From NCBI GenBank assembly GCA_963281255.1, contig OY725490.1, positions 6,965,530 through 7,029,529 of the forward strand: a DNA stretch of 64,000 nt, written 5' to 3'. Source of the DNA: Aphrocallistes beatrix (lineage: Eukaryota; Porifera; Hexactinellida; Sceptrulophora; Aphrocallistidae). The position numbers were made by a program, and so were the translations under genes. Below are positions 13,593 through 58,770 of the stretch, in pieces (within the stretch, counting starts at the first letter, position 1; each line of letters begins with the position of its first letter). The notes beneath the pieces are model-generated. The model did no database searches. It had not been told where the DNA came from and worked only from the letters and a program-made list of their open reading frames with translations.

Positions 13593-13634
13593 AATAGAAG
13601 GCTTGAAAAATAGCATCAAAGAATTGTATCTATA

Positions 13635-16472: not shown

Positions 16473-17048
16473 TTAGAGGTCACAAGGTCTGTTGTAGTGT
16501 ACTTTAGTGGTGAGAGCTGGGTTCGCTCCGTACTCCAGCAGTATGTCCACTATCTCAGTCTGCTGCCAGTAGCTAGCCACATGCAGAGGTGTCCATGCAT
16601 CGCAGTCCCCTTTGTTCACACTCACCACTTTCTCTTCACAGATGTACTCCACCAGACGAGAGAAGCCGTAGGCTGCTGCGAGATGGAGAATGCTGCCTTC
16701 GTCGCTGATGCCTAGGCTCTGCTCCCACTTGGAAACATTCTTCATTCTGTGAGCCTTTCTGAGAGCTGTGAGGAGTGTTTGTTCCTCATCATTCGTTGTA
16801 GGTGTAGTTGCATCTGTAGTGTTGAGGGGGTCCAACAGCAGTGTGATTTTCTCATTTTCTGAAACATCAAATGGCGTCTCCTGATCGTTATTGAGAAGAG
16901 AGATGTCGGCTCCGAAATCTAACAGCTTTACAGCTAGGTCATGGTTGCTGATGGCCGCTGCTATGTGTAGTGGAGTCCACCCCTCGATGTCTTGCAGGGA
17001 AATGTCTGCATTGTTTTGTATGAGAGATTCGACCATTTCAATGTGTCC
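16466..17048 (-). repeat. Inverted repeat, arm B (583 bp)
   Basis: Reverse-complement partner of 13791..14373. It covers the stop codon and most of the coding region of ankyrin copy B. Confidence 0.9.
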
Positions 17049-17204
17049 TTCCAAACTTGCGTAATGGATGGGGGAAAGTCCTGTAGGGGATCGCTTATTG
17101 ATCTCATCTCTGTGTAATGTCGGAAGGATTAAGTTAAATTCTTCCATGTCTTGTTTTTTAATTGCATCAATTAATGTTTCGAGAATGTTGAATGAAATAG
17201 ACAT
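16473..17204 (-). CDS. Ankyrin-repeat protein, copy B
   Basis: This single exon encodes 243 aa and is the paralogue of copy A. The start is the ATG at 17202..17204 (MSISFNILETL), which aligns with the start of copy A; an in-frame TTG four codons upstream is not needed. Of 15 amino-acid differences from copy A, 12 lie in the first ~55 residues and none after about residue 125. The reading frame is intact, so both genes are probably functional. Its role is the same as copy A: ankyrin scaffold, partner unknown. Confidence 0.8.
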   Translation of the reverse strand: MSISFNILETLIDAIKKQDMEEFNLILPTLHRDEINKRSPTGLSPIHYASLEGHIEMVESLIQNNADISLQDIEGWTPLHIAAAISNHDLAVKLLDFGADISLLNNDQETPFDVSENEKITLLLDPLNTTDATTPTTNDEEQTLLTALRKAHRMKNVSKWEQSLGISDEGSILHLAAAYGFSRLVEYICEEKVVSVNKGDCDAWTPLHVASYWQQTEIVDILLEYGANPALTTKVHYNRPCDL

Positions 17205-18808
17205 TTTAATTTCCAAAATATTTTCTTTACTTACAAGTTAACCTCGACTGCTATTGTCCATATTTATACTCACAGTAGTGTACAGAACAAAGCCTGAAGC
17301 ACTCGTACAAAGTTGAAAAGCTTGGATGACTACCAAGTACTAGCACAATTTTCCTGTTAATTAAACATTTTTTGCATAAATTTGCATATTATTGAATTTC
17401 GCAGGATTCAGGATTGTGAGCTGTCAGATGCGACACAACTTGTAACTTTGTAATCAATATTTAATGCAAGTTTAACAATTAAAGAGTTTAACGCAGAAAG
17501 TAGAGATTGCTGAAAAAATAATGTAGTTATGATTAGCGATTATGTGACTTCAATAGACAATCCCGTAACAAACGCAAGACTTACAGACGTAGAACGCACC
17601 CATGTGAAAGCGACGGCAATAAATGAAGAAGTTCAGCACTTGTAAGAAGTGCCAACATGAAGACAAGGTAAAGCAATCAGATAAGGAGGATCTCCGTAGT
17701 CAATTAGAACTGCACTGGCCTAGCAGATGTTTCATGGAGATGAGAAGTTCGCTTACTGATATATTTTTTCCTCGCCAAATTAAGCTAATATAACTTGTCG
17801 CACATACGTTACAGTTGGTAATGGTTCCATGACGCTGATAATGGCGATGTGTAGCATCATAGAATAGCTCTGTATTTCTGATAAAGAGTTCAATTAAGCA
17901 GAAGCAGAGCCTAGAACTACTCCACTCAAAGAGTTGATGACCAACTTGTTTACTTAGACATGCTGCATTATGCAATAAATCAGGAGGTAGAGATAAAAAT
18001 AACTTTTTAAAAAAAATGGTCATGTCTTTGGAACCATTTTATACACATGAGCGTATGATTTCAATTGTTAAATAGAGTTCAGTATTTAGTTTATTGATTT
18101 GAGATAACAAATTATACTCTTCTAGGTCTCATGTACAGAACTAAATCATATATGAAATTTATGCATGATGAACTCAATACAACAACACTTACTCAATCTG
18201 AGCAGATAGAGCACACTCACCACAGCAGAGTGAAATAGAGGATATGAATGGGGTGAGGTAGTAGTTCCTTTGAACTCCTGGATGGAACTTATACGTCTTA
18301 AGTTAACAGGTACATAGTAGGCTGAATAAGCATAAAATATAGCAGCATTCTATAAATTGTCCAATAAAACCCAAAGTCATATCATCCAAAAATGGTCACC
18401 GTAATCGCATGAAGCGTTATGTCCAATTTGTTAACACGAATACCTTAAACGAGAAAGTGATCGAACCTCAAGTAAACATCAAGGTAGTTCAATTGTGTTT
18501 TTAAAGAATTTCCGTCTGAATTATCTGTGGACAAAAGAGTGTCTAACCTTGTTACTGGTCATGTCTACACCAACAAAATTAAGAATGTTCTACGCAACAG
18601 ATTACATTGGTAAATAGGTAGTTGAGGGCGGAGGAGCATATCTCTACAATCTACTTTGACTAATCTTTTATAGTGTGTCATTATAATAGTCTAGGTAACG
18701 CCTGCATTTTTTAAAACTCTTACATAAATCTCAGAAAATCTATCAGAAAATGTAGCGCCATTGGTTTTAGGAAAATAATTAAAGGACAAAATTTATAAAT
18801 TTAAGTTA
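17205..18808. other. Intergenic, no gene seen apart from a promoter
   Basis: AT-rich sequence between ankyrin copy B and GPN3. A 107-aa minus-strand frame at 17700..18023 has no recognisable features and I do not call it. Apart from the TATA box at 17261 nothing stands out. Confidence 0.5.
17261..17268 (-). promoter_or_regulatory. TATA box of ankyrin copy B
   Basis: On the minus strand TATAAATA lies 57 nt before the ATG of ankyrin copy B. It is the same octamer as in front of copy A, in otherwise unlike flanks. Confidence 0.45.
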
Positions 18809-24266: not shown

Positions 24267-24593
24267 AGAATCTGAACTGAATAGTTCTTATCTACACTTG
24301 TAATTGAAGCATTTTAATAACTAGGATAAATTTAGGATGATTACGAATCAGCCAGTAAATTGGGAACACATGGGCTTCAGCTCAAGCCCCCTGAAACTCT
24401 GAGATAAACTCCTTTATTGGACATGTTATTTCAGAAAAATGCAAGATTAGTAACATCTTTTATTTGATAATGCTTCCAAACCAGATAAGTATGAGATCTG
24501 AATATTTTCCGGGCGACACAATCATTAGGCTATTTATAGAGGAGTTTATAGATTAGCAATTGATAAGCATCTCTTCTCTAGCAGCATACTAAA
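24267..24593. promoter_or_regulatory. Divergent promoter region, APEH / CC-NHL gene
   Basis: 327 bp separate two genes pointing away from each other. A TATA-like TATTTATA (24531..24538) stands about 60 nt before the plus-strand ATG. A pyrimidine tract ending in TCTCTTCTCTAG (24569..24580) stands 13 nt before it. The latter is a good 3' splice acceptor. Confidence 0.4.
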
Positions 24594-25835
24594 ATGGCTA
24601 CACATCTGCACTATTCTTACTCGTCAGAAGGTGAGAATCTGTTCAATAAAACCAGAAAGAAGATAGAGGATACTTTCGCCTCCTTAATCCAACTCCTCCA
24701 CGAACGATGCAACGGTCTGCTAGCCGAGCTAGAAGCAATGCAGAAAGAATTCGAGGCAAATAGTGACAAAGCGAAGGAGGCACTCGACAAGATAGAAAAG
24801 GACAACGAAGACATGAGGCGACTCTCTGTCTCTTTGAAATTAGACACAGCTAGAGATGGACTGGCTAAGATGATCGAGGAACTGGACCGGAAGAGCCGTG
24901 ATGAAGAGATGAAACTTAATTGCCCGGACATCTCATTCGTTTGTGAGACGAACGAGTTGGAATGGCGGATTGCCCATCTAGGCACTCTCTCTCTGGAATC
25001 CATACAGAAATCGCTTGTTAAGATGTACAAAGGAATGAAAGAACCACTCAAGAAATTTCGGAAACAGGGCGCTAACGAGGAAAAGTTAGCTGTCAATCCG
25101 AGGGGCGTGTGTATTGATCGAGCCAATGGGAAGATCTTCATTTCTGAAATCTCTAACTCAGAAATCGAGGTATGGAACTACCAAGGAGAGTGCGTGTCCA
25201 CCTTTGGGAAGGGGGAACTCGAAAGTCCATGGGAACTATGTCTCTGCGAGAACATGCTCTACGTCACAGACATACATCTTGATGCCATTCTCAGGTTCAA
25301 TGTTACGGGGTTCGTGTTCGAGGCTAAGACAGGAGGGAAGTTTGGGAGCGAGGAGGGACAGCTGGCCTCTCCGGCTGGGATTGATATAGAGGGAGGAGAA
25401 GTTTTCGTGATGGAGTGCGGGAACAAGAGAATATCCGTGTTTGATCCCGATCTCCAATTCCTACGTGTGTTAGGGTGCGGGCTGATCGACAAGGCACACG
25501 CTCTGAGAGTGAAACAGTCGACGGTCTACCTCCTCGAGGACTCCGGGGTCCTCAAGATGTTCTCTGGGGAGACGGGAGACCTGGTGCGGATAATCAGGAA
25601 TAACCTCTTCTTCTCGAACTACATGTATCATTTCTGCTTTGATGGGAACGGCAACATTCTGACTTCAGACAGAGACCAGAACTGTCTGTTCATTCTCTCT
25701 TCTGAGGGGAACCTGCTCCACTCCATCAACACGTCGGAGTGGGGATGTGAGTCTCCCTTTGGGGTCGGGGTAACCAGGGAGGGGAGGATCGTTATGAGTT
25801 TCCTGCACGGCGACTTCGGTCTCGTCATTTTGTAA
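24594..25835 (+). CDS. Coiled-coil / NHL-repeat protein (TRIM-like without RING)
   Basis: This single exon encodes 413 aa. Residues ~15-105 form a charged coiled coil (EAMQKEFEANSDKAKEALDK). Residues ~165-413 form NHL-type blades, e.g. NPRGVCIDRANGKIFISEIS, SPWELCLCENMLYVTDIHLD and SPAGIDIEGGEVFVMECGNK. This is the back half of a TRIM-NHL protein (coiled coil plus propeller) with no RING, B-box or filamin domain and no room for them upstream. In TRIM-NHL proteins the propeller binds RNA or protein; here the partner is unknown. Two shorter NHL genes lie at 40.6 and 41.9 kb. The end is 124 bp before PIGB on the same strand. Confidence 0.8.
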   Translation: MATHLHYSYSSEGENLFNKTRKKIEDTFASLIQLLHERCNGLLAELEAMQKEFEANSDKAKEALDKIEKDNEDMRRLSVSLKLDTARDGLAKMIEELDRKSRDEEMKLNCPDISFVCETNELEWRIAHLGTLSLESIQKSLVKMYKGMKEPLKKFRKQGANEEKLAVNPRGVCIDRANGKIFISEISNSEIEVWNYQGECVSTFGKGELESPWELCLCENMLYVTDIHLDAILRFNVTGFVFEAKTGGKFGSEEGQLASPAGIDIEGGEVFVMECGNKRISVFDPDLQFLRVLGCGLIDKAHALRVKQSTVYLLEDSGVLKMFSGETGDLVRIIRNNLFFSNYMYHFCFDGNGNILTSDRDQNCLFILSSEGNLLHSINTSEWGCESPFGVGVTREGRIVMSFLHGDFGLVIL

Positions 25836-30200: not shown

Positions 30201-33200
30201 TCAGACGTCAGTCGGCGGGACTCCCGTCCTGATCATCAGGTTAGTGGAGCGGATGTGGCGAGTGTAACACTCCGGACACATTCCTTTGATGGTAAAGAAT
30301 TTGGTACTGCGACAAACGCAACACTTCTCAGGCACCAGGGATCTTCCTTCCGTGTCTATCTTCGCCGCGACCCCTTCTGTGCGAGACTCACTCTTGGTGA
30401 GTTTGAAGTAGTCCCTCTTCGGAATGGATTCCGTCTCCTCAGAGGAGGTGGTGGGTCTGGAAGAGGATGTGTTTGTGTTCGAAGATGAGCTGTTAACAGA
30501 GATGCTGCGCGAGTGGATCTTAGAGTCCAGCAGCTTCCTGGACAGCTCCGAGTCGTCGAATTCGGGAGGGATCAACTGGTTGAGGAGTGTGAAGTGGTCC
30601 TCGTTGAAGAAGGGCTTAGAGGGCGGGTACTGTCTCGTAGGGTCGTGTTTGTTGGAACGACTCGACGCGCGGGAGCTAGAAGTGGAGGTCAGGTCGTCGG
30701 AGAGAGTGGAGAGCGTCGAAGGGGTGGACAGAGTGGAGGGGGTGGAGGTGCGAGAGTCTGAGATGGAGTCCGCTGGAGTTGGTTTCGGCTTGAGTGCTCT
30801 GGAAGGAGGATAGTTCATCTTATGTTCCGACCGGACTGGTTTCTGGTTCTCCTTCTCCTCTTCTTTCATCGCCCTGCCGATAGGAGGTGGTCTCGGGATG
30901 CTCTGGTAGAGGGAGGGGGTGAGGGGAGGGGGTCTGAGGATGGGACGGGTGTAGGAGGGCGGCGGTTCAATTTCAGGTCCCTGAGAACTCGGGGTGGATG
31001 AGGGTGTGAGTTCCTCCTGGGGCGTGGCTAGGGACGAGATGGAATCGAACTTGACTCGCTTGGCTTTGCAGTGAGCTTGCTTCTTGGGAGGAGACTTGAA
31101 CTGGTGGTTGGGGTCCAGCGTCCTGAGGACACTTCTCCGGTGCAGCTTCACAGCTTGCTGGTGGCAGACTTGTCTCAGCTGAGAGAAGGCTTGCTTCTTG
31201 ACAGGATCCAGCCGCACGTCGGGCTCTATCAGCGCGAGGTCCAGCTTGTTCTGCGCCTGCACACACAAGCTAAACGCTACGCTGAAGTCGGACACGTTGT
31301 GCGACTCTCGGTACAGGTCCCGCGCCTGCGTGTAGAACATGTCCGCTTGCGTCGGCGGGAAGGAGGCGGGGAAGGCGGGAATCCTCTCCTGCACCAACTG
31401 GGGCGGTGGAATGTATTGAGGAGCATCCGCTGGCTGGTCTTCCGTCTGCCCGCTGGCGATGTTGGACAGTTCATTCCTGAACTCTACGATGGACTGCAGC
31501 TGTTTCCTCCTAAGCCGGTCTACCTCCTGCTGCTGTCTGGACTCCTGCGCCTCCATCTGCTCCTGGTAGTCCCTGAGAAGGGAGGCCTCCTCTTCGCTGT
31601 GTCTGCGCAGCAGCAGCTCGCTCTCCTCGTCCAGCTCGCTGCTACTCATCTCCCGCCCCTCGGGGCCCTCTGAGGGGATAGGGACAGGAAGGGGCGCCAT
31701 TTTGATGGAGGAAGGGTCCGGGTCGTACTCCTCGCTGGAAGCGGAACTGCTCTCAGACTCTGCTGGAGGGGCGGGGCTCTCTTCAGGAGGTGGGAGAGGG
31801 TCCGTGAGCGGCGGAGGATGGGAGTTCGTGTAACTGGATGGGTCCGTTAGAATCGAGATTCCCTCTTGAAACTGTAACTGTGTAAATGCGTCCATCAACA
31901 CCTCCAAAGGGACCTGGTAGCTCTGGACTCTCTCCAATACGGCCTTCCCGGGGTTGAAAGCGGTCTTTTTCTGTCTCTTCTCGAAAGCTGTCACTTCATA
32001 GCTCTCTCCGATGCAAGGAATGCTCTGGAACAGATTCCTCCATAGGCCCGTCTCTGTCAGCTGCGCTGCCAGCGCGGCGACCGCTGCCGCAGAAAGGGAC
32101 TTGTCAGGGTGCAGGAGGGCGGAGAAGCAGAACTTGGGAGTAGTGCCGCTTCCGGTCTGAAGAGGTGGGTACTGTCTCGGGGGGTAGGAGGGGTCTGCTT
32201 GTGAGAGAGGCGGTGGGTAGGCTAGGTTTAGCGGAGGTGTGAAGAGGGGGTGTATAAGATCGGTACCGGCGTAAGGAACCTCAGCAGAGGGCGCAGGAGT
32301 CAGACTGGGATGGTAGTAGGGTGCGGGGTCTGATTGCGCAACAGGGGGAGGCAGGGCGATGGGAGGTGCGAAGAGAGGCTGTGATTGGTTTGTAGGCGCA
32401 TAGGAGGGATCTGTGAAGGGATTCTGAGTTAGGACAGGGAGGAGGTGCTGGCCTGGTTGTCTACTGGCGTCAGAAGGGATCACAGGAGGGGGGTTGACGA
32501 GTTCGGCTGAGAATATCAAGTCCTGCGAGCGAGGAGCTGGCACGGGATGTGCTGCGACGGCTCCGACTCCCTGTTTCTTCCGTTCATAATCTTCTAACAG
32601 ATTCTCAAACCCTATGCCGGGCGGCAGAGCGGGGTAGAGAGAGATTTTGTTTTCTGTCGATTCTTCCTCGACCTGCTGCATCCTGCGGATGGTAGCGCTG
32701 TCCCCACTGGCCTCTAGACTGCGCGTGGTCTCCTGGGGGAGCTCGAGGGGACTGGGCCGGGGGGCGGTGGGGTTGAGGTAGAGGGTGGAGAGGAGCGAGT
32801 ATTTGCTGGTGATTAGGTATTCACTCATTTGTTGGATGCTTGGAAACTAAACAATAAACATACACGTACGTACAAACTGGATTTATTCAGAGAATTGCTG
32901 AAGAATATTTACCTTCAGTTCATTACGCGGCTATTACTCAGAGGGAGTACCACCAGACGGCTAATGTTAAGCAATGTCAATTCAAGGCAGTCTTATATAG
33001 CGTTTTAAAGAAGTTTATTTATAACTTCGCTCTAAGCGATTATACATTTTTTAGGGGTTCTATATTGCATGATCTCAAGTCGGACAATGCGCATATCTTG
33101 TGTAGTGTAAAGGACGATATTATTAGCATAAATCAGGGTTTTTTTAAGGTTGAGACCTTGGTGTAACTCAGTTTAATCACGGTGTAACCACCGAAAAAAT

Positions 33201-36200
33201 ATTAACCAAATATTGCCCACGCTGCAGCGGCCGACCCAAATCGTGGTGTAACTCCCAAAATTCGTGGTGTAATTTTTACACCACGATCGCCCTTAAAAAA
33301 CCCTGGCATAAATGGAATAAATTAGTTTTGCGTTTACCAATACGAGGCTTGTAATTAAGGAATAATGGATGGACTTACCTGTCCGGCCATATGTCCATCG
33401 TAGCACACCCAGCGGCAGAACTCGAGGTGGTAACTGAAAGTGACAGTTTTCCCGGTGGGATCCGCTGCGAGGACGGAGGAGAGGTAGTAGTGAGGAGAGA
33501 GGCAACTCGCGCCGACAGGAATCAGGTCCGAGAGTCGGATGTGAGCGCCGAGTGATCCTGGCTGAGTGAGGAGTGTGTCACCGCTGAAATCCAGGATGAG
33601 CACGTTAGGCACGGAGCGCAGCTTCAGATTGGCCCCGAGAGTGCTGGCGAGAGCTTTGCTGAAGACGAGAGGATGTGTCTCTGTTCGGAACCTGCGCGTC
33701 CTGGCTAGTCTCGTGATGTTCCCTTTGAGGGCATCCAGGAAAACAGGAAATGAAGTCAAACTCCCCTGCTCATGCTCCAGCGTGAAGTTCCGCAGGGATC
33801 GGTAGTGACCAGTCTTCAGAGTCTCATCGATCGTTCCAGCAATAACCGGCACCAGCTCCCCGATGGACAGGCATCTGTCCGTGGCGGAGAAGGCGTGTCT
33901 GTGTGCGAGGGAGATTGCGCCGGAAGGGAGGGCATAGGCGCGCGAGTAGTAGTGCAGTGCGAATAGGCTCTTGAGTGCACACATGGGACAACTGTAGCCC
34001 AGGCAGGTGTGTCCAGGGGAGAGCAGCACGGCCTGTCTGAAGAAGGGGAGGTGCCAGAGCATACTGATAGCAGACACGAAGAGAGGAGGTGTCACCTGCT
34101 CCTGTGACCGCATGTCGTGTCCTGATTGAGCACTGGGAAGAGGCGGGAGTGAGGTATAGGTGTGGATGTCGGGGGTAATGAGTAGGACGCTAGGGGGAGG
34201 GGAGGTGTCAGAGGGAGGGGACGGGAAGGTGATGAAAGGAGGGGAGGTTCTTTCTAGAGAGAACATTTCTTGGAAAATTTCAGGGGGCGGGTTTGTGTCG
34301 GTGAGACTGGTAGCAGGACCAAAGCTGTCGCTGTCTCCGATATGGAGGTCCAGCATACCAGGCTGTGTGTTGGTTGTCTGGAAGATGAGCGGTTGTGTGA
34401 ACTGACCAGAAAGTAGAGGGGAGGTGACATCGGGGGTGAGGCTAGTGAGTAGGGGCGAGGAGAGAGGGGGCATGTAGGGATCAGAAAAGGAGGCGGAATA
34501 GTGCCCCATGATACTCTCGTTTGAGTAGAAGCAGAAGAGAGGAGAGAACTGGGACGATTTGATCCTGTCGCAGAGTTGCAACCAGGAGAGTTCTTCTCCC
34601 TCGGATAGAGAACCCAACCTGAACAGGAGCCACTTCTCACGCGGACACAGGTACACAGCGGAGGTGTAGACCGCATGCCCCTCCTCCACAGAGGAGAGGA
34701 GGAGACCTGTCAGGTAGTAGGAGAGGTTTTGGAGATTTCGTTTGGCGGAGACGGCGCCCAGATAGCTGAGCTGCAGCTGTGGAGGCAGATGGGAGAGAAC
34801 ATCTCGATTCACTGTCTCCTGCTCGCAGCAGAGGCAGATTAGACGCGAGGCGTTCTGTATCTGTTTCTTCTTCACGCTGGAGACGGACTTGAGGGCGATT
34901 CTGCAGTGGTTAGGGTTTAGCTTGGAGAAGCGAGGGATGTTAGTGGCTTGACTCAAGTAGGCCGAGAGGGAGAGAGAGACTGAGGGGATTAGTTCTTCTT
35001 CATTCCTGTCCGCCACTGAGAGGTAGAGCTTATTAAGGAGGGCGGGGTCTCCTTCAATCAGCTTCGAGATCAGCTGACTGTAGATAGAAGAGGGACTGTT
35101 GTCACCTATTGCTTCCGGTGCCAAATTCCTCTGAACGAACACGGAGATATGGTGCTGTCTGGTGGAGAAGGAGTGCAGGGAGGAGCTGATGAGGTTGCGA
35201 ACCTCCGACGAGAAGGGTGTCTGAGAGGATTGGGGCGCAAAGGAGGCGCTGAATCCAGGCGTGAGGAGGAGAGTACTGAGCAGCTGAGTGGTGAGGCTGT
35301 TTCTGATGTTGAGCAGGGGCAGAGAGGGGACAGAAGGATGGGGCGTGAGGGTGTGGTAGCGCACCTTGTCTAGAGAGGAGGCTAGCGATTCGGAGGTAGT
35401 GTGCACAGGAGGAGGCAGACCCGTGTGTGCAGAGGCCAGGGGAGAGGCATGCGTCTGCGGAGAGAACAAGGGCTGTGAGTGGGTGGAGGTGTAGAGGAGC
35501 GCGAGGGGGTAGATGGAGTGAGCAGTCACTTGTGCCAGCAGTTCGTCCCAGCGCTGCATACTCGTATGAGAAACCGCATTCGAGCTGTAACAGCACCACA
35601 AGCCCCTGCCCTCCACGTAGCAGTACGAGGAGAGAGCGCCAGTCTCAGAACGCGAGATGATACCGGTGAGGTAGAAGGGCTTGTGCAGAGAGTGCCGCGC
35701 CTCGGCCGAGGGGGACAAGTCTCCGAGAGTGAGGAGAGTCGGAATGCAATTCCAGATCCTCCACGTAGAGATCGTCCCCACTTCTCTGTCGTAGTTCACA
35801 GCCAAGTAGAACTGGTCCGGACTGTTGCAGACGCGCTGGCAGACGGGCGGCAGTATCTTCTTCAGGCCTTGCCTCAGCACTTTGTGGTTGTGTGTCACGG
35901 GCGTGTTTCGCTGGAGAGAGTCTTTAAACGTGTCCAGCCAATCAGACACAGCTGTCACAACGAAGTACACCTCCTTCACACCTCCTTCACGGCCTGAGTC
36001 CTCCACTTGCAGGGAGTAATGCTCCTTGAAAGCGTCGCTATGCGGCTGGAAGCTCCAGTGCAGCTGGTGGAATAGTCGGTGCCCGGTATCGAACTCAGAG
36101 CTGCCGAGCATGGAGGGCATGCAGGTGTTGAGGTACTCGATGATGTCCAGCTGGTTCACGGAGTGCGAAGCTGCGCGCTTGAAGAGAGCGTCCAGCGCGT

Positions 36201-39200
36201 GGATGATCTGGTGCTTCTTCTTGATGCGCAGCTTGCAGAAGTTGAGCACGCTGTGGTAGTAGGCAGAGAAGTTGATCATTTGCAGGAGCAGGTGCGCCGC
36301 GATGCTGGTGTCGAAGGGGTCCCTCTGAGTCCGGGGAATGCGCACGTCCCTAGGGCGGGGCAACGGGACGGAGTTCTTGGAACTGGGGTGTGATATTTCA
36401 TCTGCCTTGGGAGGAGAACTCCCCTTGAACTGTTGCACTACCTGATCGTAGCGCCCCAAGTTCTCAGCTGTGAAGGTCTTGGAGGTGAGGAAGGAAGGTG
36501 CGGGCTGCTGCTGCTGGTACTTGAGGTCAGGAGACCTGGGAGGGTGTGAATTGCTCTCGGGCATCGTGGCAGAGGAGAACAGCTGGTCCAGTTGTTCAGC
36601 GTAGTTATCCTCTGACTTGGCCAATCGATTCGGTTTGGGGTTGGGTGTGTCCATCAGCTCGCTGTGTCTCGGAGACGTGGTGTCCAGGTCAGAAGGGGGG
36701 TATTCATGAGTTGTCTGTATCACCTGGGGGATCCGCACCTTGTCTTTCTTTTTGAAGTACGTCTTGGGGTTAAGTTTGTTCAGGAGAGTGATGGAAGTGG
36801 CTTTCTTGTGTTTGCCTTTCGGTTTGACGCCATTCTGCTGTGAGAGTTTAAGAGGGACAGTCCTGGTTTTATCCTGAGCTGCCTTTGCTCCGCTCTTCCC
36901 ATTGCTCATTCCCGCTAGGGTGGAGAGCTCAGATACGCTGGAGTAGTGGCTGAAGTCCGGACCGCTCGGTTTGATCTGAATCGCGTCTATTCCTTCTAAA
37001 CTCTCCTTGGAGTGAGATACCCTGATAGGCAGTGGCGGTCTCTCTTTGTCCCGGTCTTCCCTGCTGCCAGTCTCTTCCGAGGAAGAAGTGGAGAGCTGAG
37101 GACGGTGTTTGTGTCCGTCCGTCTGCTTCATCCTCTTCTTTAAGTTGATGTCCCGAATTGGGACGTACTGAGGGTCAGGCGTGGAACGGTCCGGTGGGAC
37201 TTCATCCGTACTGGAGGACGTCAAGCCTCGAACTCTCTGGACGCTGACGTTCGGGGTCGGAGGGTCTGAGGGGTCCGGGGCGCTCACGGATCGCTTGATG
37301 CTGCTGACGGGTAAGAGGAGAGCGGAGTTCTGGTACTGATGAGAGAAGTCGAGCGGGTTCGTGTAGAAGAGAGTGCTAGGCTTTGCGTTGAGAGCATCGA
37401 TCTCGTCTAACACGCGTGCCCAGGTGTCCAGGTTCTTGTACCCCATCCCGTCCACTGACACCCAGGTCCGCAGTCCTGTGTGGTAGTAGAGGTGCAGAAC
37501 CCTCTCCTGGGAGATCTCCGCCATCACCCCGGTCAGGTAGAGGAGCGTGCTGGCCCCGGCGTTAGGTCCGATCTCCGTGAAGAGCTTGCCTACCTGCAGG
37601 GAGGTGGGGAGAGCGCAAAGGAGAGAGTTTACGTCAACGTCACGGTCCGCGTAGTCCAGAGCCAGACACAGGACTCGCGGAGCTGTCACGAGCAGGGAGG
37701 TAGCCAGGTAGGTTCTTTTGCAGGTTTGACTCTTGCAGTTCAGCTTGTTCATTAGCAGTAAAGTGTCGCGGATCGCTCGATGTGCGAGGGCGGGAACGTT
37801 GTTGATGTTTCCGTGCTTGTTACACGGTTTCTTAGCGTAGGGCAGATAGAGGGCGAGATTGAGATGCAGCAAGTTCTGTTTGAATTCTGTAGGCTCATAT
37901 ATGGCCCCGCATCTGCACTTGCCGGACTGCTGGAGCGTCAGACTGAAGAGGTTCTGAATGAGTCGGCTCTTTTCAATCGGGTCAGGTCCCTGGAAGGTGA
38001 TTGATTTCCTAAGTTCGTCTTTTAGAAGTGTGAGAATCGAATCAAAAACCTCGGTGCCACTTCCGGTGAATTGAGGAGAGTTCAGCAGCCGCGAAGATAG
38101 GCTCTGTTTGAAACAATAAATTCGTTAATTCAAACCTGAATACACAGCACACATAGTTATGATATCCGTAGCAAGTATGATAGGGTATCTAGGACACAAG
38201 TACTGATTCACACGCAGCACTATATAAGCACAGGACTAGCAGGCCTACCTGGAACAAGTCGAGAGGAGGAGTGAGGGCTGTCGCGTGAGTGGAGGCAGAG
38301 AATATTTGCTTCAGACGTGTGACGAGAGGCAGAGAGTCTGGGGTCCGTAATTGCATTTCTAAGCGGAGGAGTGACTCTCTAAACGCATCGATGCTCCAGA
38401 GAGCGACGATACTGGTGAAGAAAGGGTGGTAGCTAGCTCTGGTCTCTTTCCTGAATATGCTGCATTCGGAGCTAGCTTGGGAGGGAGGAGGGGGGTGGGG
38501 CGTGGATACACTCTGTCCGTTTAATAAACCGTTTCTGTTCGGTTGACGCCTGCACAGAGAACTTTCGTAGTTAGATCCGATGCCGATACTATCAAGTCCT
38601 TCCAGACTCGCAGTGTTCCCGGATAAGTGCACATCCTCGTTGCTGGCGTCGTTATAGAGAACCATCCGGACCGGACTTCCCGCCCTCTGCTGTAGCTCTG
38701 CCGGCATCACTACGTCCTGCACCAGCCGGAGAGAGGGAGGCTCCTGTGTCGGGTCGTCTCGCGGGAACATGTCGGTGAGGATTTGCTCCGCTATGGAGTT
38801 CAATCCAGGGTTGGTCTTAGTGTGCGAGATCTCAGGGAGGCCTCTCTCCAAGGGAGAGGAGTCCAGCAGGCTGGGGGCGGGGTTGAGGTAGAACAGGACG
38901 TCAGGACGGCAGTAATTCGACTCGAGGAAGTAGCGGACATCCTGCCAGACCAGGCCGATTTTCTCGAAGTGAGTCCCGTCATATATGATCCACGACTGTA
39001 TGTCAGTAGTGTAGTATATGATCAACTGCACCTGGTTGACCGAGACGAGCATTCCGTAGAGGGAGAGCACTCTCTGAGAGATAAACTTGTTGGCTACCAG
39101 GGGGAAGAGGTCCTTCATGAGGAGAGAAGGGGAGATGTGCTGCACGATGAATTCAGTGTCGGAAGAGTTGATGACGTCAGGATTCCATTGGAGGTGTAGA

Positions 39201-42200
39201 GGGATGACGTCAGGGGAATTCATAAGCGATAGAGAGGTCCCGTCGTGAGTTAGCATGTTCCGAATGATGCTAGAGAAGAGCTTAGGGAAGGAAGGAGTTT
39301 GGTGGGGTTTAGAAAGCGCAGATTGGAGCTCAGCCACTAGTCTGTTGGCAGAGATGGGAAGAGCCACCTGTGTGTAGAGAGTGCCTTCCTTATGCTGCAC
39401 TCGAATCTGCAAGCTCTGCTTGAGATAGTTAACGAAAGGGTTGAGTGGGAAGCGAGAAAAGAGCTGCGAAACTAGATCTATGTAGAAGTCAGTGGCAGTG
39501 GTACCGTTCAGCTGGGCTAGCAGGCCTATGTGTTGACAGGAGACGGGAATGAATCTGGAGGGGATGAGATGAGGCACTGCGATGATGATGTTAAATATTT
39601 GCTTGAGATAGATCAGCGGCGTGTCTTCGATTACTTGGTCATGGATCTGAAGGAGGGAAAGCCTGAAGTGATTCATTTGCAGCAATGTGAAGAGGACGAC
39701 GGACAGTCTCTCTGCGCACTCCATTTCGCTGGTGGGGACTACTGATTGCGGAGAGAGGTTGGGAGAGGGAGTGAAGTCGCGCTCTGTGAACTAGAATAAA
39801 ACAAAAAATTATTAGATTGTTCTTATTCAGAAGTACTACAGTGGCGAGCATTTTAAGGAGGATAATGATGATAATAACAAAGGTGCATAAAGCCATTGCT
39901 TCAAAGTATTCGCCCTTTGTCTCTTCATAATGATGGAAATTAGATAATATATAAACAATAGATGTAAAGCTAGGTATATTGCGAAACAGATGCAAGCATA
40001 TTGTCATAACTGTGCTCGCTATGTTATGTGCAAAATGTAAGTGTGCGAATGAAGATATTATAGGTCAGGTTAATAGGAGATTAAGTAAGAGAAAAGATAT
40101 TGAATATCGAACCTATTTTTTCTGAAAGTACTCAACTGAAGAGATGATTAAGCACATAGGCGCCGAACCCGGGGGAGCTGGGGGGGCTCGAGCCCCCCCT
40201 GGATTCGAAGATGGCCCATAGACGCAATACAAAATTTTGGGCTGAGCCCACACTGGAACCCCGAAATTGTCCTTAGATTTTGAAAAGTTCGGCGCCCCTG
40301 ATTAAGCATCCTCAATATTAGCATAAACAAGCCAGATTACCGGTCAAGAAATGAACTCACAATTCTACCTGTGCATCTGTTTAATTGAATCATAATCAGA
40401 CGAGCACAGAGATTGTGTGAAGTAACTTGAGCTCTATCTGCAGCCAATAGAATTAGACGCTGGAATTTCGACAGAGAGTAGGCAGAGAGACAGGGGTTAC
40501 AGATAATATAATAAATAATGTATCCAGGATTCTTTAAGAAGTTTAAATCACTTTGGTATGATAACCAAAAGCATCGGGAGCTATGGAGACCAAGAAGGGA
40601 ATTTTAAGGGACCGAGAGGAATTGCCATCGAACCGAGTAGCCAAAATATCTATATTGTAGACTCGATCAATTGCCGCGTACAGGTTTTCTCCAAAGATCT
40701 GATATACGAGTTCTCCTTCCCCCAAGCTGGTGATTCAGCACGATTGAACCTACCTTGGGGTATTTGCATAAAAGACTCGCTCGTGTTTATAACTGCTAGC
40801 TCTATCGACTACTTCGAAAGGCAGGCCGAACACGGATTCTATGTATACACGATAGATGGGATATTAATAACGAAGATTAATAGATATACTGTACGAGAGA
40901 GAGAAATGAAGTTAAACGTGCCTCAGGGAATCGCGGTGGACTCCGAGAACAATGTGTATATCGCTGATTTTAACAACTCGCGAGTAATCGCATATTACGT
41001 GTCATTGCCTCTCTATAGTGTAATTGTTGCAAATGCAAACCCAAGGAATGTCTATTTGCACAGCAAAATGCTGTATATACTCCTCAGCAATGGAAAGGTG
41101 ATTAGGAAGGGATTAGATAAGGAGACAGAAATTGAAAAGATAATCAATTGCAAAAGAAATTCCTGTTCGGCAGAATTCTTTTCTGTGTTAGATGATAAAG
41201 TATATGTATGCGACCAGAAACGGAATCAGATTATCGAGTACTCTATTGAAAACGGAGAAATGACGAGGACAATAGGACAATCTGATAGCTTCACTCACAT
41301 CAAAGGTTTAGCTTTTGACAAGCAGTCAAATGTCCTTATCAGTGTGTGTGAAAATGAACGTAACAGGCTAAAGCGGATCTTACTGTAGACCAAGTAAATT
41401 TAATTGTATATAAACACGATTAAAACATGTGTATATATGAAACCATATAAGTGATGTGAAGAATATTATAAGTGCATAAAGTTTTGACCATTTATAGAAT
41501 CCAATCCAATCCGAGTCAGCTGACAAAACTCGTAGCAAGGCACGGGGGGCAGGTTCCTCAACAACCTGTACTTCCAACATAACCATAAGATGTTTACCGA
41601 AATGAGATTGTCCCAAGCTGACTCGTGAGGACAAATTCAAATCTGATATTTAAGATATTTAATGGCGATAGAGCATTACTTATCTAGTTAATAATTATAT
41701 AATTATGCTTGATCCACTTACAAGAAGTGACAATATAGTCTATCATGATATAAGACATAATTATCAAAGCAAAGTAGCTCAAGATTCTGTGTATTGAGTT
41801 ACGATTCACTCAGATAAGCAGTATCATAATATCTTTCTATATAGGCTCCTCTGACAAAGGCAAGGGATTCATATCGTTAGCAAACTGACTTCTTATTAGA
41901 TATTTACAAGAATGGAGAATTCCCAGCGCGATTACAAGCAGATAAAAGGACCAATCAAGTCGATTGGAGAGTTCGGGGCAAGCCGATGCAAATTCATGGG
42001 GCCTAAGGGAGTGAAAGTAGACCGCTGGACTCAGAATATCTATGTAGCTGATGGAATGGCTAACCGAATTCAAGTCTTTAGCAGTCAACTTGAGTTTCTG
42101 TTCGAGTGTGGAGTTAAAGAGGAAAAGAAGTATCTGTTCATCCCCTCCGGAATCTGCCTAACGGACAGACTCGTGTTTATAGCGACAGGAGTGGTGGGGA

Positions 42201-45200
42201 TGTACATCTTCACCTTGGAAGGGGAACTTGTCACCTCTTTCTATCCTCAGTCTAAATCGATTTACAGAACCATCAAGGCAGTAGCGGTAGATGAAGATGG
42301 GAAATGCTACGTTTGTGACAGGGCAGGGAATCAAGTCGTCGTGCTCTATAATGGCCTCCCCACCGCAGAGGTATTCGTCCAGTCCATCAATCGTCCTTGC
42401 GACATCAAAATATTCGAGAATACTATCGTCGTGCTGAAGGGCTCGGAGAAGATGTTGAGCGTGTTCTCAAGAGAGGGCGAACTCCTGAGAGAGTTCCTGA
42501 CAAGAAGCGGGATGGCATCAGAATTTTTCGACATCGATCGGTGGGGGAACGCACTGATCAACGATTCCATCGACTGCAAAATAAAGATCCACAATCCTTC
42601 CGGCGACCTCATCCATCAATTGACAGGAAACTTCTTCAACAACAAAGGCATCGCCATAGACGGGATGGATCGCATAATATCCGTGTGTGAGTATGAAATA
42701 AACAGATTGAAGATATTTTGAGTTAATTATATACAATAGTGTTTACCAGTGTTCACCTAAGTCGAATTGAAACTAATAATTTAGAGGGGCACAAGTGTAG
42801 ACTCACCTTGGTTAGTTGCGGAGTGAATAACCTGGAACTGAATGGACAGTCGCTCAGTGGAGATGTGAATTGGGATTGACTTGACACCTGTGCATTGTTG
42901 TCACTAATCGCAGAGCCGATCGTCCCTGAGTCCTGCGAGGAGGTGACTGTCAGGTGAGGGGGAGGGGGGAGAGGGGAAGGAGACAGAAGCATTTCTTCAT
43001 GTCGGATGGTGGCGTCCAAGAAAGAGAGTGCTTCGTCTACACCAGTCTGCACAGAGAGGTGGTCTGTCAGGATAGGCTGAGTGACAACGAGAAAGTCTCC
43101 GTGTGCCAGAGGTTGGGAGGGTGTGAAGGTGTTGTGTCGAGTGTCAGAGGACGGGTGGAGGGCGAAGGGAGCTGCGGCGGGGTTGGAAAAAAGAAGGAAA
43201 ACGGGCGTGTGAGTGCTAGTGGAGGCTTTACAATTGTGCCAGACACTGGAGAGCTGAGGTCCCAGCACTGAGACGCCATGCGTCCTGCCGCTGTAGTGCG
43301 TCCAGCAGCAGATGTCCTGGTTGTAGAACCAGGTCTCGCAGTAATTAGGGCTCTCCGTGATTATTCCTAGCAGGTAGTACACCCTCCTGAACACGTGCGG
43401 GTTCCGAGTCTGGTGGAAGAGGTCCTTCGGCTGGATTGCAGTGCTTATCCGTTCGTAGAAATCAACCACCTCGTCCCGGTCTGGTTGTCTGTCCCAGCGA
43501 AGCGAGAAGGCAATCACATCCGGAGAGTTGAGCAGTGAAATTTGGCGATTTTTCACATCTCTTGGCAGTTCAATTAGATCCCTGGCTGCTTGCGCGAAGA
43601 GACGCATCACTCTGATGGATCCTGCTGGGTGTTGCGGAGTAGAGGTGTTAAGATCTTTGATTTTCTGAATCAGATCGCGAGCTGAAACCTCAAGAACCAT
43701 CCGTGTGTGCTGAGTGGCATCGGTTCCACTCTGGCGAAGCTCCAGCTGCGACGCCAGCCTCTGATGCGTGATACACTCCGAACTCTGACACACCGCATTC
43801 CCACTCTCAGCGAGCGCAGCATCGCACAGTCTCGCTTCCTGGCCTTCCCCACAGAGTGCGTTGTGGAGACGCATCAGCAGGTGCTGGTATGTGGAACTAA
43901 CAGGAGCAGAGAGGATAGTGTCCTCAGCTTTGGGGAGGGAGAGGATGGGTCTGAGAATGGATGGAGGGAAACAATAGTCCTTTGACTCATGGGCTTGAAT
44001 GAGTGCGCAAAAGAGGCAGAGGAGACCTTCACACTTGTGATGCATTATTCCCGTCAATCCCTTCCTAATCACGTCCAGCTGTCTTAGTACCCAGAGGGGA
44101 GAAGGGGTGGGAACAGGGGGATCGCTTTCTTTGCTATTGTCGGGAGAGACAGAGATGATATCGAATAGTTTCTTTCCGTCCCCGTCCGCCCCCTCATTCA
44201 CGCGGAACGTACCCATGTCCTCATCCATGTCCTGATCGCTCTTCGAGTCAGTTGCACGCTTGACTGTCTCACGCAACATCATTTCCGGTTTAACACTTTC
44301 TGGGTCTGGAGACAACTTCTCGCCTGCTCTCCAATGAAACAGCTCTGCGTCGCTGCTATACATTGACTCAGGACTTCCGTGCCTGTTCCTGTAGATCGGA
44401 ACGCTATCAGAGGTAGAGGGGAACAGGTTCTCCCTCCGAATCTTCTCCCCCTCTGCCCCCGGAGAGACGACAGACTCAGTGAGGGCAGAGCCAGTCTCCA
44501 GGGGTGAGAAGAGAGGGTCTGTGTACACGAGGAGAATGGCTTGGTAGGACAGGCTGCGCAGGGTGTTTAGCACCCCTGGCCACTTGTCTCCGAGAGTGGT
44601 GAGCTTCGCATCGTCCATGCAGTACCAGGCGTGCAGGGTGGAATGGTGGAAGAAGAAAGCGTAGCTGAGGTCGTGTCTGGCTACGATGGCAGTCAAGTAG
44701 AGCGGGCGGAACCTAAGCATAGGATCACTCGGCGAGAACACATCAGTCAGATTCAATGATACGCCGATTGAGTTGATGACGTCATCAAGATTCTGAGGAG
44801 TGAGTGGGAGGCCGTCCCAGCTGAGAGAGATGGTGAACACATCCGGTCTGTTGCTGAGAGAGCGCTGAATGCGGAGCGGCAGTTTACAAGCGGGGTTAGT
44901 ACACAGCTGAGTGTCCTGGAGCGCTCCGATTTCTCTCAAAACGTGTCCGAAATGGTTCCCTCCTCTCTTGGCATGCGACACTCTTCTCATCTCTTCGATC
45001 AGGGATTGCGCAGACACAGAATAGACCAGTTCCAGAGAAGGAGAAGGGTCCAGTCTGCTTCCGCAAGGACACTGCCCTGAAAAATTGAAGCTAGCTGCAA
45101 ACTTCTGATGTGTCACACAGTGAGGCGCGGTGCAAATAGTCATGTCTGGAGTTCCAGTCAAGCTGTAATGGATTCGCACGAGCAACTCTTCGTACGTTTT

Positions 45201-46862
45201 AGGGACATCGTCAAATGAAAGACCGAGGTTGTAGCCCTTCTCTCTCTCGAAACAAAGCGCCATGGCACGTCTTAGCAACTCTGGAGGTACCACTGGAATG
45301 TCTTTATAGTCAAATCTCTCCAAGATGAGCTGGTATACACAGAACACACACGTCTTGAGAGTGCAAACGTGTCCCTTCACACTCTGAAGAGCCCGCCGGA
45401 ACATGGGAAGCTGCCAGAGGAGGGCGAAAGGGGTTGGTATAGTCGGGACTTGCCTCTGACAGGAGCTCCTCTGTGTGTGTTCTCTGAGCTGAGGAGGGAA
45501 GGAGTGTCTGGAGGAGGGTTCGGGAGAAGGGGGTAGCAGTTCTTCTTCGCTGTGAGATTCTACATGCGTACGCATCGAAGGAGAATGGACGAACACTTGA
45601 ATGTTTTGGTAGGAGACATCTGATTGCGGAGACAGTGACAAGTCTCCTGAAAGGTCGAGCCGCCCCCCATGAGCCTCCTTCGAGCCCAATCCGAAATCTA
45701 AGTACCCATAGGAGCAGCTGTCCTCTGTGAGAAGAGTCAGGTTAGTGAGTGAGTGCGGAGGATGGTCGAGATAGTTTGAGATTCCTTCTTCCCAAAGAGA
45801 AGTATTTTGCATCTCTTCTTCCCATACGTTGGAGAGTCGGTTACTCTCATCGCTGGTGCTAGGCACGAGATGAGGAAGTGTTACGGCGGCAGGAGCTGGC
45901 TCGCTCGGTGCAAGTGCAAGAGAATCGGAGAAGATTAGGAGAGTAGGGAGGTAGCCATTCTGCTTCATATAGAATAGAAGTTGTGAAAAGGTCCCTTCGG
46001 CAAGCTTTACAGACACAGAATCAGTCCTAACCCATAACTTTCTTTGTGTGTGGAAGGTGAAACACACCTCTTTTCCCTCCAGTAGACATACAATAGCAGT
46101 GAGTAAGTATTTTTGTCTGTTCCCTATCAGGTCTGTCATCAAGAGCTCATCCGATTTCAAACTGGAGCTCATTGAGTCTAGAAAGATTGCCAAATCTTCG
46201 CCCAACCCTTCCTCCTCCGCAGGCCACTGCAGCTCTACAGCTAGAAGAGGCGGCGAGGAGAGCATTGTGAGAGTAGGCGTGATCTTACGGGAACATTCGG
46301 AATGATTGGGACAAGGGATAGTGTGGGGTGTGAGGAGAGCTTGGTGCACAAGTCGCGAGAAATCGTTTGGATCGGTTCGGTTTTCTGATAGTTGTATGGA
46401 TCCCATCAGGGAACGGAATCTTTTCACTGAGAAAGAAAGATAAGGTGTCACTTCTGGATCTGAACTAAAGGTGTAGCCGCACTCACAAGCCATTTTCTCA
46501 GCAATCCGCGAGCCGAACAACACCTCTCCCAGCGGCGTGGCGAGACACTGGTCCAGGGAGCAGAGGATCGTAGCGAGCCCTGCAGCAGCTGAGTCAAATC
46601 TGGTCTGGGACCCTGTCTGGAAAATGGTAGCGGCCCGCTGGACTATGTTCGGGGGGAGACCAGTGTATTCGTGATGCTGAAAGTTCGGATAGATCGACTT
46701 GAGTGCACAGAAAGAACAGGCAGTGTATTTGCAGTTTGTGTGTTTTTTTACATCTCTAAAGTTTTTTCTGAATTCATCTGTCTGCCAGAGTACCTGAATG
46801 GTAGAAGTGAGGAAGAGAGACGGAGGTACCGTCACAGAATTGGGCACTTTCTGTGTGTCCAT
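30201..46862 (-). CDS. Giant multi-module inactive USP53/54-like protein, ~4,322 aa
   Basis: Four exons, 42807..46862, 38249..39790, 33379..38103 and 30201..32846, all join in phase 0 at good donors (AAG|GTGAGT, CAG|GTAGGC, CAG|GTAAGT) and acceptors. I see eight tandem modules resembling the inactive peptidase domain of USP53/USP54. They lie roughly at 46823-45924, 45437-44514, 44102-43164, 39722-38860, 38430-37350, 36330-35470, 35310-34510 and 34100-32760. Each begins with a helix like TSTIQVLWQTDEFRKNF and ends like WKDV..Y.P.LLLYADP. The catalytic Cys position is not Cys (Leu in modules 1 and 8). Zinc-type cysteines (TACSFCALK, KTCVFCVYQ, LLCLFCALI, YSCPMCALK) survive in modules 1, 2, 3 and 8. 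The tail has an MIT-like helical hairpin (~31360-31100), also known in USP54, and a last finger EKCCVCRSTKFFTIKGMCPE. The introns are 3,016, 145 and 532 bp. A split into two genes at the 3-kb intron cannot be excluded. Confidence 0.8.
33134..33305. mobile_element. Non-autonomous hAT-like MITE (172 bp)
   Basis: The element is flanked by a perfect 8-bp target duplication, GCATAAAT (33126..33133 and 33306..33313). Its ends are inverted repeats: CAGGGTTTTTTTAAGG against the reverse complement CAGGGTTTTTTAAGGG. An 8-bp duplication and CAGGG ends are typical of hAT transposons. Inside are several copies of GGTGTAA and a perfect hairpin, CGTGGTGTAA-TTT-TTACACCACG (33263..33285). There is no coding capacity. 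It sits in the last intron of the giant USP-like gene. Confidence 0.85.
40155..40300. mobile_element. Non-autonomous hAT-like MITE (146 bp), second family
   Basis: A perfect 8-bp duplication, ATTAAGCA, flanks the element (40147..40154 and 40301..40308). The ends are imperfect inverted repeats: CATAGGCGCCGAAC against CAGGGGCGCCGAAC. Inside is a perfect 20-bp palindrome of seven G, CTCGAG-type centre and seven C (40180..40199). It is GC-rich in an AT-rich intron. The ends and duplication length point to hAT. It does not match the 33.1-kb element internally. Confidence 0.85.
40558..41388 (+). CDS. NHL-repeat protein, nested antisense gene 1
   Basis: This single exon encodes 276 aa, nearly all NHL-type propeller. 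Blades are visible at IGSYGDQEGNFKGPRGIAIE, QNIYIVDSINCRVQVFSKD, LNLPWGICIKDSLVFITAS, VPQGIAVDSENNVYIADFNN and IKGLAFDKQSNVLISVCENE. There is no coiled coil, RING or B-box, and no signal peptide. It lies wholly inside the first intron of the giant USP-like gene on the opposite strand. It is a paralogue of the gene at 41912 and of the C-terminal half of the protein at 24594. The ATG at 40558 is the first in frame; an earlier ATG (40518) is in another frame. Function is unknown beyond a likely binding propeller. Confidence 0.7.
   Translation: MITKSIGSYGDQEGNFKGPRGIAIEPSSQNIYIVDSINCRVQVFSKDLIYEFSFPQAGDSARLNLPWGICIKDSLVFITASSIDYFERQAEHGFYVYTIDGILITKINRYTVREREMKLNVPQGIAVDSENNVYIADFNNSRVIAYYVSLPLYSVIVANANPRNVYLHSKMLYILLSNGKVIRKGLDKETEIEKIINCKRNSCSAEFFSVLDDKVYVCDQKRNQIIEYSIENGEMTRTIGQSDSFTHIKGLAFDKQSNVLISVCENERNRLKRILL
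41912..42721 (+). CDS. NHL-repeat protein, nested antisense gene 2
   Basis: This single exon encodes 269 aa of NHL propeller: IKSIGEFGASRCKFMGPKGV, QNIYVADGMANRIQVFSSQL, IPSGICLTDRLVFIATG, AVAVDEDGKCYVCDRAGNQV and NKGIAIDGMDRIISVCEYE. It shares layout and end (CEYEINRLKIF against CENERNRLKRILL) with the gene at 40558, so the two are tandem duplicates. It ends 85 bp from the exon boundary of the giant minus-strand gene, inside whose intron it lies. No upstream domain is visible. Confidence 0.72.
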   Translation: MENSQRDYKQIKGPIKSIGEFGASRCKFMGPKGVKVDRWTQNIYVADGMANRIQVFSSQLEFLFECGVKEEKKYLFIPSGICLTDRLVFIATGVVGMYIFTLEGELVTSFYPQSKSIYRTIKAVAVDEDGKCYVCDRAGNQVVVLYNGLPTAEVFVQSINRPCDIKIFENTIVVLKGSEKMLSVFSREGELLREFLTRSGMASEFFDIDRWGNALINDSIDCKIKIHNPSGDLIHQLTGNFFNNKGIAIDGMDRIISVCEYEINRLKIF

Positions 46863-56478: not shown

Positions 56479-58175
56479 CATATCTCCGGGAAAGCTCGTT
56501 ACAGCTACGTCACAGCTACAGCATACCTTGGAGAAAGCTACGTTACAGCTACAGCATATCTCCGGGAAAGCTACGTTACAGCTACAGCATATCTTCGGGA
56601 AAGCTACGTTACAGCGACAGCATATCCTCGGGAAAGCTACGTTACAGCTACAGCATATCTCCGCGAAAGCTACGGCACAGCTACAGCATATCTTCGGGAA
56701 AGCTACGTTACAGCTACAGCATATCCTCGGGAAAGCTACGTTACAGCTACAGCATATCTTCGGGAAAGCTACGTCACAGCTACAGCATATCTTCGGGAAA
56801 GCTACGTTACAGCTACAGCATATCTCCGGGAAAGCTACGTTACAGCTACAGCATATCTTCGGGAAAGCTACGTTACAGCGACAGCATATCCTCGGGAAAG
56901 CTACGTTACAGCTACAGCATATCTCCGCGAAAGCTACGGCACAGCTACAGCATATCTTCGGGAAAGCTACGTTACAGCTACAGCATATCCTCGGGAAAGC
57001 TACGTCACAGCTACAGCATATCTTCGGGAAAGCTACGTTACAGCTACAGCATATCTCCGGGAAAGCTACGTTACAGCTACAGCATATCTTCGGGAAAGCT
57101 ACGTTACAGCGACAGCATATCCTCGGGAAAGCTACGTTACAGCTACAGCATATCTCCGCGAAAGCTACGGCACAGCTACAGCATATCTTCGGGAAAGCTA
57201 CGTTACAGCTACAGCATATCCTCGGGAAAGCTACGTTACAGCTACAGCATATCTTCGGGAAAGCTACGTCACAGCTACAGCATATCTTCGGGAAAGCTAC
57301 GTCACAGCTACAGCATATCTTCGGGAAAGCTACGTTACAGCTACAGCATATCTCCGGGAAAGCTACGTTACAGCTACAGCATATCTTCGGGAAAGCTACG
57401 TTACAGCGACATCATATCCTCGGGAAAGCTACGTTACAGCTACAGCATATCTCCGCGAAAGCTACGGCACAGCTACAGCATATCTTCGGGAAAGCTATGT
57501 TACAGCTACAGCATATCCTCGGGAAAGCTACGTCACAGCTACAGCATATCTTCGGGAAAGCTACGTTACAGCTACAGCATATCCTCGGGAAAGCTACGTC
57601 ACAGCTACAGCATACCTTGGGGAAAGCTACGTTACAGCTACAGCATATCTCCGGGAAAGCTACGTTACAGCTACAGCATATCTTCGGGAAACACAGCTAC
57701 AGCATATCTTCGGGAAAGCTACGTTACAGCTACAGCATATCCTCGGGAAAGCTACGTTACAGCTACAGCATATCTCCGCGAAAGCTACGTCACAGCGACA
57801 GCATATCCTCGGGAAAGCTACGTTACAGCTACAGCATATCCTCGGGAAAGCTACGTTACAGCTACAGCATATCTCCGCGAAAGCTACGTCACAGCGACAG
57901 CATATCCTCGGGAAAGCTACGTTACAGCTACAGCATATCTCCGCGAAAGCTACGTCACAGCGACAGCATATCTTCGGGAAAGCTACGTTACAGCTACAGC
58001 ATATCCTCGGGAAAGCTACGTTACAGCTACAGCATATCTTCGGGAAAGCTACGTCACAGCTACAGCATATCTTCTGGAAAGCTGCGTTACAGCTACACCA
58101 TATCTTCGGGAAAGCTACGTTACAGCTATAAGATATCTTCGGGAATGTAACGCTACAGTTCCAGGATATCCTCGG
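56479..58175. repeat. 33-bp satellite with higher-order structure, ~50 units
   Basis: The monomer is 33 bp (GAAAGCTACGTTACAGCTAC ... AGCATATCTTCGG). Monomer variants recur in a fixed order in blocks of 7-9 monomers, giving a higher-order repeat. All three forward frames of the monomer lack stops, so long open frames arise automatically. The 540-aa frame at 56528 starts at a TTG, reads 11-residue units such as GKATLQLQHIF, and is shifted by a 7-bp deletion near 57691 without being closed. It is therefore not evidence of a protein. The 3' edge decays gradually to about 58200. Confidence 0.9.
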
Positions 58176-58770
58176 AAAAGCTACGCCGCAGTTACATCAG
58201 AACCGTCTACAAGAGTGAACATTAATGTTTGATGTCATAATAAGTTACGATGTATGCTATTGTAACTTATTCTTATAGAAATAACAATTAAATTAGTCAT
58301 ATGGGGTAGAAACAAATCAGAAATGAAAGGGTGAATAAGTAGTATATATTTAGTGATGGTTAAACCTTCCCATTCCAAAGCTATGGTGTAAATATATCTT
58401 GTGAAAGTAGGCAACTCTGAGTCTTGATTCAAACGAATAAAACAAGAAAATAAATATATACATTTCGATACATATTTGAGGACATCTAACCTGGCAACAT
58501 AAGCAATACCAAATAGCATTTGCAATCGTCTTAAATGTATAACAGCGTGCATTAAAGTAAATTATCGTGAAAATAAATCAACAAACCCCCTGAATGAATT
58601 CAAAAACAACACGTTACTTAGTTTCAGAGTAGAAGGGGAGAGTAAATATTTTTCCACTTCATTAATCAATAATTGAGAAAAATAAGGAAAACAACGAAGA
58701 ATTAATTAGAATAAGAGCAAAGTAAACCTAGCAACATAAGTGAAATAGTTGTATTTTAAATAAATTTGAA
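58176..58770. other. Spacer between the 33-bp and 159-bp arrays
   Basis: AT-rich, with no supported gene. The sequence at 58711-58724 (AATAAGAGCAAAGT) resembles part of the 159-bp unit and may be a decayed edge copy. Confidence 0.5.

Follow-up and report, generated by a model that had tools for sequence, protein, structure and literature searches.

Eight tandem USP54-like modules, without the catalytic Cys and His in place, in a predicted protein of the glass sponge Aphrocallistes beatrix

The minus strand of the window (the whole stretch of DNA that was analysed, 64,000 nucleotides of contig OY725490.1) encodes a tandem series of eight modules related to USP54, none of which carries the catalytic Cys or His at its expected place. 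The reading that we favor, and consider probable, is that the USP domain of an animal USP53/54-family gene was duplicated in series, giving rise to eight modules within one protein of ~4,322 amino acids that would act as a non-catalytic multivalent scaffold.

The eight modules and their closest relative

A profile built from the eight modules and USP54 marked eight stretches, and no ninth, on the joined protein, here named M1 to M8 and all lying on the minus strand: M1 (45888..46862, amino acids 1-325), M2 (44463..45455, amino acids 470-800), M3 (43128..44135, amino acids 910-1245), M4 (38837..39754, amino acids 1365-1670), M5 (37327..38464, amino acids 1795-2125), M6 (35422..36354, amino acids 2450-2760), M7 (34477..35349, amino acids 2785-3075) and M8 (32730..34119, amino acids 3195-3480). 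When the same profile was run on the 682 six-frame pieces of the window (stop to stop, at least 40 amino acids long), it picked out the four exons together with two further pieces, both at the level of chance (E 0.4 and 0.71). Searched singly against 1,609 sequences, M1 to M5 and M8 matched USP54 (for example M3 at E 1.1e-18, M5 at 1.7e-12 and M8 at 7.1e-10), and in a PDB sequence search M1 and M4 did so at E 2.4e-20 and 2.5e-10, respectively. M2 is the module closest to USP54, with 34.0% identity over 309 columns. Neither M6 nor M7 matched USP54 singly in the 1,609-sequence set, in the default search of which M7 had no match at all; M6 alone had no PDB sequence match up to E 10. Pfam recognized UCH in one of the eight module rows and in one of the four exon proteins.

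The divergent modules were instead recovered by leave-out profiles, searched against a set that included 1,600 shuffled modules: M4 at E 2.7e-22 (best shuffle 0.48), M6 at 5.8e-13 (0.23) and M7, the most divergent, at 4.9e-9 (0.74). The value for M7 depends on the profile, being 5.3e-6 and 8.6e-5 with smaller training sets and 0.0016 (best shuffle 0.024) with a profile of M1, M2, M3, M5 and USP54 only, and M7 is the weakest-supported of the eight. With eight stretches marked by the profile and leave-out profiles that beat 1,600 shuffles, the eight tandem modules described in the initial annotation were recovered. The shuffles, together with the profile marking of the 682 window pieces, led us to reject chance repetition, and a duplication introduced by the assembly was rejected on the low identity of the modules to USP54 (13.2-34.0%) and to M7 (14-21%).

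As for the family of these modules, the exon 1 protein matched human USP54 (PDB 8c61) at E 5.6e-53, with M2 as the best part, and the exon 3 protein matched it at 2.4e-15 in two stretches. A profile made from the window's modules alone (with M5 and M8 partial) found USP54 in the PDB at E 1.2e-46, and the other nine of its ten matches up to E 10 were USP28 chains, at 3.2e-4 to 9.8e-4. This gap upholds the proposed link to the USP53/54 family and, by sequence comparison, USP54 is the closest solved relative of the modules. Three residues (L51, L292 and W315 in USP54 numbering) are identical in all eight modules, whose best-conserved positions are mainly hydrophobic. No relatives were found for P0001 among prokaryote genome contigs, nor for M2 among viral contigs and phages.

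An AlphaFold2 model of M7, for which the sibling modules served as alignment, was poor (mean pLDDT 51.3, pTM 0.49, 177 of 291 residues below 50). The Foldseek matches of this poor model were nevertheless headed by four USP54 chains (2.5e-7 to 1.6e-6). Of the 50 matches listed, 49 were USPs or Ubp8 and the remaining one was a spliceosome chain; ~120 columns were aligned with the USPs, at a TM-score of ~0.34. For the modules other than M7, we infer a USP fold from homology.

Gene structure and the intron between M3 and M4

Joined in frame, four exons of the minus strand encode 4,322 amino acids and a final stop, in agreement with the ~4,300-residue protein that had been proposed. Exon 1 (42807..46862, amino acids 1-1352) holds M1-M3, exon 2 (38249..39790, amino acids 1353-1866) holds M4 and the beginning of M5, exon 3 (33379..38103, amino acids 1867-3441) holds the remainder of M5, M6, M7 and most of M8, and exon 4 (30201..32846, amino acids 3442-4322 and the stop) holds the end of M8 and the tail. 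The coding frame is free of internal stops, and the remaining two sense frames contain 22-55 of them per exon. All three introns are GT..AG and, since every exon length is divisible by three, all are in phase 0. By an approximate consensus score, ranked over 7,091 GT and 9,599 AG sites, donors 33379, 42807 and 38249 ranked 1, 2 and 41, and acceptors 39790, 32846 and 38103 ranked 127, 827 and 978. Thus, of the earlier description of phase-0 joins with consensus sites, the phase and the GT..AG borders stood in three of three joins, but acceptors 38103 and 32846 are ordinary by consensus-score rank.

Introns 2 (38248-38104, minus strand) and 3 (33378-32847, minus strand) interrupt M5 and M8, respectively, and joining restores both modules, so homology backs those two joins. 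Intron 1 (39791..42806, minus strand, ~3 kb) lies in the linker between M3 and M4 and is the sole join without such split-module support, which favors a reading of two adjacent genes, one encoding M1-M3 and the other M4-M8 and the tail, separated by two antisense NHL genes. In line with this reading, the 3-kb gap contains two open plus-strand NHL ORFs, the exon 1 frame continues 17 codons beyond its donor before reaching a stop, and exon 2 offers a Met shortly upstream of M4. We nonetheless consider two genes unlikely, given that donor 42807 and acceptor 39790 rank as high as 2 of 7,091 and 127 of 9,599 by the approximate consensus score and are in matching phase, and that the open frame of exon 2 begins exactly at this acceptor. 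M3 and M4, on either side of the intron, are moreover the second most similar of the 28 module pairs. We are therefore quite confident that M1-M3 and M4-M8 belong to one gene, and a single transcript spanning the M3/M4 intron is likely. Were there two genes, each would nevertheless encode a dead USP54-like protein with several modules.

The NHL-repeat ORFs inside intron 1 (40519-41388 and 41900-42721, both on the plus strand and so antisense to the array gene) are each a single ORF and share 27.6% identity over 293 columns; a further NHL ORF lies at 24582-25835 (plus strand). Elsewhere, the window contains a MANF/ARMET gene, an inverted pair of ankyrin-repeat ORFs (13614-14366, plus strand, and 16473-17237, minus strand) with 95.4% identity over 738 aligned bases, a tandem array of a 33-bp unit at 56503-58185 (51.2 copies, with several frames open on both strands) and a tandem satellite of a 159-bp unit at 58769-64000 (32.9 copies, 99% matches) that reaches the window end. 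MANF/ARMET, like USP53/54, is an animal family, which fits an animal host.

Catalytic residues, zinc motifs and ubiquitin contacts

In the alignment of M1 with USP54, a Leu stands opposite the catalytic Cys (SLFLTSTIQVLW against SCFLNSALQVLW). In M2-M8, where the place was judged by counting eight residues upstream of the start helix, none of the seven has a Cys at the expected position. The His column reads K, S, Y, V, E, G, G and K from M1 to M8, with no His in any module, and the Asp is kept in five of the eight. Two modules come close: M4 has a Cys two positions away from where it is expected, and M7 has a His shifted by one column. USP53 and USP54 are described as having a distinctive Cys loop of their own (PMC12037411); the elongated Cys loop EPGQNSC is found ahead of none of the start helices, and its pattern has no match within the window. 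The modules are thus predicted to be catalytically inactive and, because the triad is lost, no cleavage of ubiquitin chains is predicted. The expression "dead deubiquitinase" in the initial annotation accordingly suits the array, in which Cys and His are lost in eight of eight modules, but not USP53 and USP54 themselves, which are reported to be active, K63-specific deubiquitinases whose S2 site centres on F161/Y160 (PMC12037411).

The zinc-site motifs are likewise unevenly retained. The C..C..C thumb motif is present in four of the eight modules (M1, M2, M3 and M8), the second thumb motif in two, and the finger CxCG motif in three (M1, M2 and M5), being absent from M3, M4, M6, M7 and M8. Scored as motifs and not as structures, all three sites are found together in no module but M2; M1, M3, M5 and M8 have one or two of them, and M4, M6 and M7 have none. 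The full pattern was said to recur in every module; with C..C..C in only four and CxCG in only three, it does not.

At the column of F161, the S2 contact residue, M1 to M8 carry A, N, E, Q, Q, E, A and E, with an aromatic in none. This replacement in all eight modules speaks against the ubiquitin platform suggested earlier, and it weighs on the possibility that the array is a multivalent reader of ubiquitin or polyubiquitin, whose dead modules would still accommodate ubiquitin at the S1 site and hold chains or measure them. Such a reader would be a special case of a scaffold, and our confidences in the two are not mutually exclusive. In its favor, some deubiquitinases are reported to gain ubiquitin affinity upon Cys-to-Ala substitution (PMC6172466), and both the S1 and S2 sites of USP54 are reported to bind K63 chains (PMC12037411). 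However, besides the loss of F161 at the centre of the S2 site, the S1 site of USP54 is itself described as weak (PMC12037411) and five modules are missing the finger CxCG, and we hold a reader to be improbable.

Exon 1 also contains an acceptor-like site, 46793, directly before the VLWQ of M1 (rank 80 of 9,599 AG sites by the approximate consensus score), which may be a relic or an alternative start. It raises the question of isoforms in which an upstream Cys-box exon is spliced to 46793, between Q and V of the start helix, making M1 part of an enzyme, in a manner resembling the alternative N-termini described for Echinus. A splice here would keep the phase, and isoforms of both Echinus and USP54 are reported to vary in the Cys box (PMC1950886). 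Yet the M1 sequence ahead of 46793 already aligns with USP54 (the Leu-containing segment above), M1 has no His in place, and a search of the whole window, both strands included, with three Cys-box patterns gave no match, by which a Cys-box exon at another place in it was rejected; we regard such isoforms as very improbable.

The tail, known relatives and putative role

A single-sequence model of the tail (mean pLDDT 56.5) displayed a confident long helix (31455..31628, minus strand, amino acids 3848-3905, model residues 174-231) followed by three helices, corresponding to an MIT-like stretch (31116..31349, minus strand, amino acids 3941-4018). Foldseek of the tail gave no match below E 0.32; the MIT domains of NRBF2, Vps4 and ULK3 appeared at E 0.40-1.4, with bacterioferritins scoring alike, and there was neither a Pfam match at E 10 nor a significant PDB sequence match. 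The MIT-like tail of the initial annotation thus survives as a resemblance of the three-helix stretch to MIT domains, though the best of these, at E 0.40, is not significant. An MIT-like tail is plausible given the MIT domain predicted in USP54, whose ESCRT-III binding is reported to be weak (KD 70-170 uM; PMC9477494). At the C-terminus, a CxxC..CxxC motif (30267..30323, minus strand), which from its sequence may be a zinc ribbon, had no Pfam match.

The array shares a USP domain with human USP53 and USP54, the latter of which has the predicted MIT domain, and it differs from both in having eight modules, with Cys and His out of place and the S2 residue replaced, where theirs are K63-active (PMC12037411). 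Drosophila Echinus is a further relative with a USP53/54-like domain, and its isoforms without the Cys box are reported to be functional, rescuing the mutant (PMC1950886), a precedent for non-catalytic function in this family; unlike the array, it is a protein of ~1,700 amino acids with a single N-terminal USP domain. KIAA0157/Abraxas and USP52/PAN2 have, like the array, been called pseudo-DUBs, and KIAA0157/Abraxas is described as required by an active partner. Neither is an array of USP54-like modules, however, and KIAA0157/Abraxas belongs to the MPN- proteins, which have a different fold.

The order of the modules bears on how the array arose: the neighbor similarity of the real order is reached by 34 of the 40,320 possible orders (the real order and its reverse being counted), which points to growth by serial duplication, although serial duplication would also fit tandem genes. 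In the scaffold reading that we favor, each module would fold as a pseudo-USP domain and offer a protein-binding surface, and the eight domains, carried on linkers, would present repeated, diverging surfaces, while the MIT-like tail may attach the chain to a trafficking complex; we infer this scaffold role. A more specific version, which we offer as a doubtful conjecture, is that the array provides a platform, either multivalent or length-measuring, for ubiquitin chains, ubiquitin-like proteins or partners of USP53/54 and is kept at membranes by its MIT-like tail.

Among the matches listed in phrase searches of the open-access literature, which excludes subscription journals and preprints, there was no description of an array of USP53/54 modules, most of them concerning universal stress proteins, and no title in the literature searched was on point for USP54 in sponges. 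If transcripts agree, eight copies of a deubiquitinase domain would stand in one protein, and the USP53/54 fold could persist for binding alone, which would fit Echinus working without its Cys box; the modules would also provide eight natural variants for mapping which surface matters. An enzyme domain has here apparently been turned into a repeated building block.
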